A stretch of 64,000 nucleotides of DNA, from contig SVJS01000001.1 in NCBI GenBank assembly GCA_015068855.1, positions 62,001 through 126,000 of the forward strand, in the 5' to 3' direction. Numbering within the stretch: the first letter of the stretch is position 1; each line of letters begins with the position of its first letter. The notes below the pieces were generated by a model that worked only from the letters and a program-made list of their open reading frames with translations, was not told where the DNA came from and did no database searches. The stretch is from Oscillospiraceae bacterium (GTDB lineage Bacteria > Bacillota > Clostridia > UBA1381 > UBA9506). Shown piece by piece: positions 7,936 through 52,579 of the stretch. The position numbers and the translations under genes are program-made.

Positions 7936-8012
7936 AAAAAGGAGGAGCAAGGAAGCAGGCGGATGTTTTTCTTGCAAAAGAAAAACGGAGCAAAGCGAAC
8001 TTTGCTCCGACG
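7936..8012. repeat. Dispersed hairpin repeat, copy A (next to tmRNA)
   Basis: From 7948 to 8015 this copy matches 52192-52259 at 67 of 68 positions. It contains two perfect hairpins, TTTTTCTT-gcaa-AAGAAAAA and CGGAGCAAAG-cgaa-CTTTGCTCCG. Both copies start with AAAAAGGAGG; copy B has 43 extra bases holding a third hairpin that copy A lacks. On the minus strand the last hairpin followed by TTTTTCTTTT serves as the tmRNA terminator. Its last bases merge with the encoded CCA end of tmRNA. Confidence 0.85.
7976..8009 (-). terminator. tmRNA terminator supplied by the repeat
   Basis: On the minus strand, a 10-base-pair stem with a TTCG loop (7986-8009) followed by TTTTTCTTTT, three bases beyond the tmRNA 3' CCA. 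Confidence 0.85.
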
Positions 8013-8359
8013 TGGTGGAGACGAGGAGAATCGAACTCCTGTCCGAAAATATCGCAGCCTCAGGCTCTCCGAGTGCAGCTTGTGATCAGGATTCCCCCCA
8101 CTGTCAGCTCACAAGCAAGCTGACAGCTTCGGTAGCTTCATTAATACCTGGTCGGCGCAAAGCTTAACCGACTCATGTTCACTGCAAAATGATGCCCTAT
8201 CCCCGACCGCAGTCCTTCAGGGTAGGACAGCTGCCATTAATTAGGCAGCAGCTAATTCAGTGTTAGCGTTTAAATTTAAAAATTGCGGCTTTTATAGCGG
8301 CACCGCACCGCTACTCGCTCCCGGGACCTTAATATCCCCGTCGAAACCGTTGCGTCCCC
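8013..8359 (-). ncRNA. ssrA: tmRNA (transfer-messenger RNA)
   Basis: 347 nt, rescues stalled ribosomes by trans-translation with SmpB. The 5' end GGGGACGCAACGGTTTCGAC and the 3' end with the T-arm (GTTCGATTC) and CTCCTCGTCTCCACCA are diagnostic; GGGGAC pairs with GTCTCC, and CCA is encoded. The likely tag frame reads GCT AAC ACT GAA TTA GCT GCT GCC TAA, giving ANTELAAA, ending in a hydrophobic Ala-rich degron as expected. The resume codon is inferred from position and the GCT start; the eight-residue tag is short. The gene has a perfect promoter upstream and a repeat-derived terminator downstream. Confidence 0.96.
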
Positions 8360-18765: not shown

Positions 18766-18781
18766 AATACTCTCTTTTTTC

Positions 18782-18885
18782 ACACCGGGTAGTCCTGCAT
18801 CACATTTAAGACTCCGTTTATCGCTGCTTGGTTCCCCACCTGACGAGGTTCGCGGGCTCAAATTGCGCAGGACCCGGCCGACAAC
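18782..18885 (-). ncRNA. ffs: Signal recognition particle RNA, small bacterial type
   Basis: About 100 nt, pairs with Ffh to target membrane proteins. The S-domain signature GAACCTCGTCAGG then a GGAA-capped stem then AAGCAGCG is present, and CCGGGTCCTGC near the 5' end pairs with GCAGGAC-TA-CCCGG near the 3' end. The apical stem reads GG-GGAA-CC where the common form is CC-GGAA-GG, a compensated swap. No Alu-domain sequence of the long Bacillus type was seen, although the promoter lies some 70 bases further upstream, so a processed 5' leader is implied. Location next to dnaX is the usual one. Confidence 0.93.
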
Positions 18886-19016: not shown

Positions 19017-19772
19017 TTAATATTCGGTCACATTCTTCAAAAAAGCGGCAATACGTTCATTTTCTGTGTTGCTGAAAATCTCCTCAGGTGTTCCCTCCTG
19101 CAAAACAACGCCGTCATCCATAAACAGAATTTTGTCGGAAACCTCTTTGGCAAAGTTCATTTCATGGGTAACAATCACCATGGTGGTGTCCTGTTTTGCA
19201 AGCTGCTTGATAACCTTCAAAACCTCGCCCGTAAGCTCAGGGTCAAGAGCGGAGGTGGGTTCGTCAAAGCAGAGAATATCGGGGTTAAGCGCTAAGGCTC
19301 TGGCGATGGCAACACGCTGCTGCTGACCGCCGGAAAGCTGGCAGGGATAGCTTTCCACCTTATCGGAAAGCCCTACCTTTTCAATGAGTTCAAGCGCCTT
19401 TTTCTCGATGTTTTCCTGTGTATCAAACTTTAACAAAGAGGGCGCTAATGTAATATTTTTCAAAACATTATACTGTGGAAACAAATTAAAGGACTGAAAC
19501 ACCAATCCGAAATGCAAACGCATGTCACGGATATGCTGGTCGCTCATTTTATTCTTTTCCGCACCGTCATAAATCACTTTATCGTGTACAGAAATGGTGC
19601 CACCTTCTGCAAATTCCAAAAAATTCAGGCAACGAAGCAGGGTTGTTTTACCGCTGCCGGAAGACCCGATAATGGAAAGCACATCGCCTTTTTCAATTGA
19701 AAAATTGATTCCCTTCAAAACTTCGACCTTGCCGAAGCTTTTAACCAGGTTCTTAACTTCTAATATAGGCAT
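19017..19772 (-). CDS. Amino acid ABC transporter, ATP-binding protein
   Basis: 251 residues, GlnQ-like. Walker [11 protein letters not shown]-loop [10 protein letters not shown], signature LSGGQQQR, Walker [15 protein letters not shown] and the switch His in THEMNFA are intact. It is the third gene of a minus-strand binding protein-permease-ATPase operon and starts four bases after the permease stop. The insert around residues 70-80 ([17 protein letters not shown]) is common in this subgroup. Confidence 0.93.
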
Positions 19773-52136: not shown

Positions 52137-52259
52137 AAAAAGGAGGAACTGTGAAGCAAGTGACTGATTTTTTTGCACAAAAAAATCGGAACAAGGAAGC
52201 GGGCGGATGTTTTTCTTGCAAAAGAAAAACGGAGCAAAGCGAACTTTGCTCCGACGTGG
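52137..52259. repeat. Dispersed hairpin repeat, copy B (next to tRNA-Val)
   Basis: From 52192 to 52259 it matches 7948-8015 with one mismatch. It contains the three hairpins GATTTTTTTG-ca-CAAAAAAATC (absent from copy A), TTTTTCTT-gcaa-AAGAAAAA and CGGAGCAAAG-cgaa-CTTTGCTCCG. It starts AAAAAGGAGG like copy A. No protein is encoded. Bases 52005-52136 before it are an AT-rich leader with a possible promoter of the 52004 gene. Confidence 0.85.
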
Positions 52260-52294
52260 CTTTCGAGTACATAATAGATGCAAGTATATTTCTA

Positions 52295-52469
52295 ATGAAA
52301 TCGCTCTCTTCGTTCACGATGAAATCCAAAACAAGTTTTGGATGAAATCAAAGTTTACAACTTTGAGGAAATTAAATCCGTCTTAATATCCCGACAGAGT
52401 CGGATTTCATCACAAAGTGATTTCATCTGTGTCAGCAGATTTATTCCGTCGCAAGACGGATTTAGTTGA
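52295..52469. repeat. Array of short hairpins joined by ATGAAATC/GATTTCAT boxes
   Basis: The left half has the box ATGAAATC at 52295, 52319 and 52342 and a degenerate AGGAAATTAAATC at 52366. The right half has the inverse box GATTTCAT at 52403 and 52419 and degenerate GATTTTATTC at 52438 and GATTTAG at 52460. Between boxes lie small hairpins: CCAAAAC-aa-GTTTTGG, CAAAGTT-tac-AACTTTG, CCGAC-aga-GTCGG, TCAC-aaa-GTGA and CCGTC-gcaa-GACGG. Boxes of the halves could pair as a long stem with hairpins on both sides. It ends at the terminator of tRNA-Val. Confidence 0.8.
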
Positions 52470-52502
52470 AAAAAGCACTTGCAAAATGCAAGTGCTTTTT
52501 TC
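52470..52502. terminator. Terminator of tRNA-Val
   Basis: AAAAAAGCACTTGCA pairs with TGCAAGTGCTTTTTT, directly beside the tRNA 3' end; bidirectional. Confidence 0.9.

Positions 52503-52579
<77 letters not shown>

Follow-up and report, generated by a model that had tools for sequence, protein, structure and literature searches.

Terminator-like hairpin elements of Clostridia behind tRNA and tmRNA genes, and their link to a structured element with a copied tRNA 3' end

The window, a stretch of 64,000 nucleotides from the genome of an Oscillospiraceae bacterium (the host), carries on its minus strand the tmRNA gene ssrA (8013-8359; tag ANTELAAA; found by ARAGORN and scoring 153 bits against Rfam RF00023) and a tRNA-Val (gac) gene (52503-52579; tRNA prediction and Rfam scan). 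On the 3' side of each, as the earlier note had reported, lies a copy of one 68-base stretch, copy A at 7948-8015 and copy B at 52192-52259. Their near identity is borne out: 67 of 68 positions agree, the single mismatch being A at 7957 and G at 52201, the match stops abruptly on either side, and the best ungapped 68-mer between the two 2-kb neighbourhoods reaches 67, against at most 38 in 20 shuffles. The last three bases of copy A are TGG at 8013-8015, which is the CCA end of the tmRNA on the minus strand as well as the end of the 68-mer, so that nothing separates copy A from the end of the mature RNA. Between copy B and tRNA-Val there are 243 bp, and the tRNA has a terminator-like hairpin of its own immediately behind the CCA (52468-52502, minus strand; a 16-nt perfect inverted repeat). 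What directly precedes copy B, and serves as its docking site, is not the tRNA but a 23-nt tail, ATC...CCA (52257-52279, minus strand), of a form that also stands before the repeat elsewhere. Behind the tRNA-Val terminator, at 52318-52467, lies an array of short hairpins with TGAAATC or TGAAATA joints, and similar arrays follow tRNA- or tmRNA-linked terminators at three other loci (L054, L088 and L223; motif counts 5-8). Elsewhere in the window, near the SRP RNA (18780-18879), short stretches within 19117-19375 are 74-98% like unannotated human-gut 'Bacteriophage sp.' scaffolds. When the window was compared with Rfam 15, only tmRNA, tRNA and SRP RNA reached the gathering score, and the repeat matched no family.

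The element to which the 68-mer belongs, as its core, is non-coding and short (about 75-90 bp); it is here called e1. A model of this core, R1, was built from 49 copies (alignment A1, 49 of 56 representatives; left out were L031, L106, L116, L143, which is a chance regex match, L196, L203 and L215). Copy A presents the full core directly after the tmRNA CCA (7938-8012, minus strand; 89.5 bits over R1 positions 1-77 of 77, copy A being itself part of A1). Hairpin 1 reads CGGAGCAAAG-TTCG-CTTTGCTCCG and is followed by T5, and the terminator scan gives it the shape of an intrinsic terminator. Both copies have such a G+C-rich hairpin on the minus strand followed by the T run TTTTTC, copy A at 7986-8009 (10 pairs, 6 of them G-C, loop of 4) and copy B at 52230-52253 (terminator scan). 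The pairing of hairpin 1 is conserved across the 49 copies, with its two strands, 1 and 2, paired in 99.0% of 392 cells and 4 pairs changed on both sides. Hairpin 2, T-rich in copy A (7966-7985, minus strand; from its sequence and fold), varies freely, and a coding role for e1 was rejected on the ground that hairpin lengths vary freely among copies. Close to its right end, the core has a third strand (TTGCTCC; minus strand, 7944-7950 in copy A), which covaries with the 5' arm of hairpin 1 as an alternative partner: strands 1 and 3 are paired in 98.6% of 294 cells, again with 4 pairs changed on both sides. The covariation reflects a second way for the RNA to pair or else a terminal inverted repeat; at one locus, L340, the left end AGGAGGAGCAA and the right end TTGCTCCTCCT form a perfect inverted repeat. 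The last hairpin had been taken to be the terminator of ssrA, and its shape is indeed canonical, from which we infer that e1 probably terminates tRNA and tmRNA transcripts. On the plus strand of 52137-52259, e1 opens with AAAGGAGGAGC, which resembles a strong Shine-Dalgarno sequence; its end on the tRNA strand is CCTCCTTT, similar to the anti-Shine-Dalgarno of 16S rRNA, and these likenesses may be coincidence.

Copy B is composite. Its 5' part belongs to subfamily I (52189-52256, minus strand; R1 65.8 bits) and its 3' part corresponds, by BLAST matches, to the 3' part of subfamily II (52137-52191, minus strand). In the host genome, BLAST matches 52137-52195 (query 8-66) to one set of genomic copies at 90-93% and 52188-52259 to another set at 87-94%, and finds no second locus that matches the whole 133-bp copy-B region at full length. 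To judge from these matches, copy B is a fusion of two e1 subfamilies joined at a common CTTG, which would account for what the earlier note called an extra hairpin module. That module is real, being the 3' part of the second subfamily of the same repeat, and the suggestion that modules are gained or lost holds insofar as modules do recombine, copy B joining subfamilies I and II. BOX elements of Streptococcus are modular hairpin repeats with a variable inner module, as is e1. BOX elements are not known to be linked to tRNA ends, and e1 differs from them in that the additional module of copy B comes from the fusion of two subfamilies.

The dispersed family that had been expected exists. The host genome (1.25 Mb, 93% complete) holds 13 BLAST matches to the 133-bp copy-B region, and R1, scanned over 83 chosen loci, finds 14 distinct copies in host loci; the repeat is thus not confined to two copies at fixed positions, as tmRNA 3' flanks also vary between relatives. 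The copy-B region is matched by BLAST in 28 of 61 genomes, host included, and R1, in a search that scored no more than 12 places in any one genome, has matches in 73 of 391 genomes from the class, or 51 of 222 genera. Cultured isolates with names are among the carriers, for example Oscillibacter valericigenes and Flavonifractor in the matches listed by a pattern scan, and so are single-contig genomes such as G130. Viral contigs gave 0 matches for e1 in three exact-pattern scans, and carriage by phages was rejected; BLAST matched one unannotated 'phage' scaffold and one 335-kb Monoglobus 'plasmid', in both cases at a tRNA 3' end. When 13 fetched loci were compared with Rfam 15 (E <= 1), RNase P RNA and tRNA alone reached the gathering score, with a few sub-threshold matches elsewhere, and neither e1 nor the companion element introduced below matched a family. 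Searches of the open-licence literature in PMC found no description of the e1 family among the papers listed. It is apparently an undescribed large family of short hairpin sequences in many gut Clostridia.

All 14 host copies lie on the strand of a tRNA or tmRNA gene, 0-406 nt downstream of it, so that the idea of a repeat that follows RNA genes holds for every one of them. What had escaped the earlier note is how exactly e1 is placed: read in the direction of the tRNA, the core starts with CGTCGG immediately behind CCA. For an unbiased test of position, a pattern from which CCA was absent was run over GTDB species genomes; it returned at least 122 distinct instances. Among the matches listed, CCA stands directly before 94 of 122; 67 begin no more than 1 nt from the end of a tRNA or tmRNA gene called by ARAGORN, 21 lie 2-600 nt downstream of such a gene and 7 are at a contig edge; 27 are without a nearby tRNA or tmRNA gene, and several of these visibly follow a tRNA-like 3' end. 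The 94 distinct copies collected from the host and related genomes divide into 42 that abut an intact gene, 19 that abut a truncated tRNA end (at least 12 nt), 5 that abut a tail and 28 unclassified, and a same-strand tRNA or tmRNA gene lies within 600 nt upstream of 77 of the 94. Similarly, 15 of 20 copies from 17 genomes across the class, hand-picked from the R1 match list, start 0 or 3 nt after an intact tRNA. In the host, 6 of the 14 copies dock on a truncated copy of a tRNA 3' end that lies 170-237 nt downstream of the tRNA. Where no tRNA end precedes e1, a 23-nt tail of the form ATC...CCA does so (L010, L001, L322 and others), with little sequence identity from one tail to another; 12 of 13 distinct tails measure 23 nt and one 24 nt, under a pattern that allowed 22-24.

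A dispersed intergenic hairpin that starts with CGTC, in a genome with RAYT-like genes, invites the reading that e1 is REP-like and that a RAYT (Y1) transposase moves it in the form of single-stranded hairpin DNA. The earlier note had pointed to this and proposed a check for a REP-associated TnpA, and the host does carry two RAYT-like Y1 genes (L279, 1787-2302; L280, 1792-2280). However, neither e1 nor its companion element was seen in the flanks read around them, and the 300-400 bp flanks of five Y1 genes (two from the host and three from relatives, five of the seven Y1 stretches fetched) contain no e1. In a search of 61 genomes, moreover, Y1 matches are absent from the copy-rich relatives G006 (95% complete) and G017 (86%). 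A Y1 driver was rejected on these two observations, and the REP/RAYT reading as a whole is very improbable. The comparison with described REPs is consistent with this verdict. Di Nocera et al. (2013) describe CGTC-tagged REPs with an unpaired tag, stems starting with A-T and a CCA tail at the other end (PMC3733652). With these e1 shares a short palindrome starting with CGTC, dispersal between genes and the lack of a known transposase, but it is sited at tRNA and tmRNA 3' ends. Its tag is not unpaired: in all 49 copies of A1 the last C of CGTC is paired with a G (columns 4-32), and the whole tag is able to pair with GACG in many members from the class. Its first pairs are C-G, G-C and G-C rather than A-T at the first two stem positions, and instead of an unpaired CCA tail at the other end, its CCA precedes CGTC as the end of the tRNA or tail. 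e1 thus shares the tag of the CGTC-tagged REPs but lacks three of their defining features (PMC3733652). With GTAG REP/RAYT systems e1 shares repeated hairpins and a RAYT-like gene in the genome, but differs in that no GTAG tag stands beside a stem in A1, no repeat flanks the Y1 genes within the stretches read, and two copy-rich relatives do without Y1 (PMC3733652).

The earlier note had likewise not seen that e1 has a companion. This second element, U, left the truncated tRNA ends on which the six host copies sit. It consists of units of about 200 bp with a covarying RNA fold, usually ending in an exact copy of tRNA nt 59-76 and often arranged in tandem arrays. In the loci read, the order is constant. 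An intact tRNA is followed by a terminator, an inverted T-arm copy, constant hairpins and a copy of the 3' end of the tRNA, and then by e1 or another terminator, after which the first terminator is often repeated. Examples are L374, with three units, L367, L378 and L379, and in the host genome L083, L085, L088 and L344; the 64-kb window itself contains no U. BLAST matches U in 20 of 61 genomes, host included, and the model matches it in 85 of the 391 genomes from the class. Of 262 tRNA and tmRNA genes, 36 are followed by an exact repeat of 14 nt or more of their own 3' end, a proportion that is not a genome rate, many loci having been fetched because they carry e1 or U. The copy measures exactly 18 nt (nt 59-76) in 21 of the 36. 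With another gene's end as the control, 0 of 262 reach 14 nt and the longest match is 9 nt. This test left out genes with less than 330 nt downstream or not ending in CA. In a second set of 35 genes, whose loci were chosen by matches to the U model R2, 24 have a copy of their own end, 19 of 30 copies measure exactly 18 nt, and no control exceeds 8. Versions that reach into the anticodon arm also exist, with copies of 33-37 nt (L006, L052, L218 and L220). At L374, three units spaced 198 bp apart each end with the identical 18 nt of tRNA-Arg. The same terminator, AAACAAAAATCCTGTCGAAAGATAGGATTTTTGTTTTG, was observed directly after a truncated tRNA end at L085 and L226. It stands behind tRNA-Lys in the host and behind tRNA-Arg in a genome of another family, and its presence at both suggests that further terminator modules may spread as e1 does.

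The 18-nt length and the inverted T-arm recall LTR elements. In a tRNA-primed retro-element, the copy of nt 59-76 would be a primer-binding site copied up to the modified base 58, for which the 21 copies of exactly 18 nt would speak. Yet the reverse transcriptase domain RVT_1 was not found in the host genome or in G001-G010, and the 33-37 nt versions do not fit, which leaves this reading close to refuted.

At the other end of the unit, inverted copies of at least 11 nt occur at 33 of 262 genes, against 3 in the control. The inverted T-arm copy lies next to the gene and typically corresponds to tRNA positions -14 to -26. The U fold comprises 39 pairs (RNAalifold), with 97.4% of 856 cells paired and 23 of the 39 pairs changed on both sides, against shuffle means of 85.7% and 11.8, and its closing helix pairs the inverted copy with tRNA nt 59-63. 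The inverted copy and the closing helix would suit an RNA that responds to or acts on its tRNA, for instance an antisense to the T-arm that would control how its own tRNA is folded or processed, while e1 would serve as the terminator of U. The L374 array, in which the loop match is retained in the unit nearest the intact tRNA and lost in the inner units, points the same way. Against this, the inverted copy sits behind a terminator-like hairpin and may therefore seldom be transcribed, and U is absent from most tRNAs and from most genomes; such a function for U is quite improbable.

Islands that carry genes are known to use tRNA and tmRNA 3' ends as hot spots of integration. U shares with integrative elements the direct repeat of the gene's 3' end from the T-loop or anticodon loop, and lacks an integrase gene of its own between the repeats: the 3'-end copies end 100-367 nt behind the gene, too close for such a gene to fit. 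The ssrA islands of Dehalococcoides are described as inserting at the T-loop with 20-bp direct repeats, a conserved motif upstream of the repeat and tandem accretion, and as carrying genes that include the serine recombinase DsiB (PMC3146451). Compared with these islands, U is alike in its T-loop junction, its short repeat of the RNA gene's 3' end (mostly 18 nt), the motif before the repeat and tandem accretion, but it is about 200 bp long and non-coding, is found at many tRNA species and has an inverted T-arm copy and a covarying fold. In the host genome, no resolvase-type (serine) recombinase was found; there are two tyrosine recombinases, one of which (296 aa) may be Xer.

Whether e1 and U move or are simply inherited is where the evidence pulls in two directions. 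Both could be ordinary, vertically inherited parts of tRNA units, a terminator and a tRNA-linked structured RNA, that owe their likeness to homologous exchange and selection rather than to transposition. A site right behind the mature end is what a terminator needs, compensatory pairing is strong in U and e1 alike, and among the genomes examined six have e1 at tRNA-Leu(caa), where it looks inherited over several species (83-99% identity for the pairs listed). Recent spread or gene conversion, as proposed earlier, may still have played a part, but some sites, such as this one, look old. Vertical descent does not account as readily for the tmRNA 3' flanks of close relatives, which differ within the genus (e1 in some, U in some, a plain terminator in some), for the presence of e1 behind truncated tRNA ends and tails as well, or for unlike U scaffolds accreted in tandem at one gene, as with two different scaffolds at one tRNA-Ser. 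A further sign of mobility is that the U scaffold at one tRNA-Lys is 96% and 94% identical by BLAST to two tRNA-Ser scaffolds of the same genome and 86% to the tRNA-Lys scaffold of a sister species. Among 22 scaffolds (alignment A3, 22 of 27; the older or aberrant L013, L095, L131, L201 and L246 were left out), mean identity is 0.708 within a genome at other tRNAs (n=18), 0.684 in other genomes at the same tRNA (n=7) and 0.695 where both differ (n=205). Neither the tree of these scaffolds nor their identities separate by genome or by tRNA, and U at the same tRNA across genomes is thus no more alike than at different tRNAs, contrary to what inheritance in place would lead one to expect. Purely vertical descent is, on this evidence, an unlikely account, although one to be taken seriously.

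The best explanation as a whole, and one that we hold to be somewhat more probable than its negation, is that terminator cassettes accrete at tRNA 3' ends. According to this explanation, e1 would bring a complete terminator to its site. It would dock immediately after the CCA of a tRNA or tmRNA gene or else, a short way downstream of such a gene, on a truncated 3' end of a tRNA or on a 23-nt tail ending in CCA. Copies and modules would accrete at tRNA 3' ends by insertion or recombination, with the junction at CCA for e1 and at T-loop position 58/59 for U. The likeliest route would be a site-specific recombinase acting in trans on tRNA ends, as with integrative elements, followed by tandem duplication and homologous exchange between copies, and copy B would then be a recombinant of two e1 subfamilies. 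Accretion is supported by the copies of the gene's own end against none in the control, by the 198-bp tandem units of tRNA-Arg and by the two U scaffolds at tRNA-Ser, and turnover by the variation of tmRNA flanks within the genus. Several observations weigh against it. Neither e1 nor U is linked to an enzyme in the host, whether a tyrosine recombinase, a resolvase or a RAYT-like protein; a recombinase requires an attP that matches each target, whereas U is matched to many different tRNAs while its scaffold is shared; scaffold identity is unstructured by genome or tRNA (0.71, 0.68 and 0.70); e1 at tRNA-Leu(caa) looks inherited; and no clean pre-insertion site with both flanks conserved was found. 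A bolder extension of the accretion explanation, which is possible but on balance doubtful, is that Clostridia carry a class of non-coding mobile elements that write their own address. A common scaffold, U, would insert behind many tRNA and tmRNA genes, each copy beginning with an inverted T-arm and ending in an exact duplicate of host nt 59-76; e1 and other hairpin modules would then dock on the resulting CCA junctions, making tRNA 3' ends sites for terminator cassettes. The enzyme involved would have to copy its target, not merely recognise it.

The repeat first seen as a pair is real and belongs to more than the pair suggested: across Clostridia, a terminator-like family is docked on tRNA ends and linked to a structured element in which the 3' end of the tRNA is copied. 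Where the family sits, how it is built and how widely it is distributed are shown here, whereas termination and the manner of spread are inferred. If accretion is true, which enzyme duplicates a tRNA 3' end of arbitrary sequence becomes a testable question, as do the action of U RNA on its tRNA and the evolutionary replacement of tRNA terminators. For annotation, e1 and U repeats explain truncated tRNA ends and unlabelled hairpin arrays beside the tRNA genes of gut Clostridia. More broadly, with e1 in 73 and U in 85 of 391 genomes of the class, tRNA and tmRNA 3' ends look like hot spots for tiny non-coding cassettes that may also supply the terminator.
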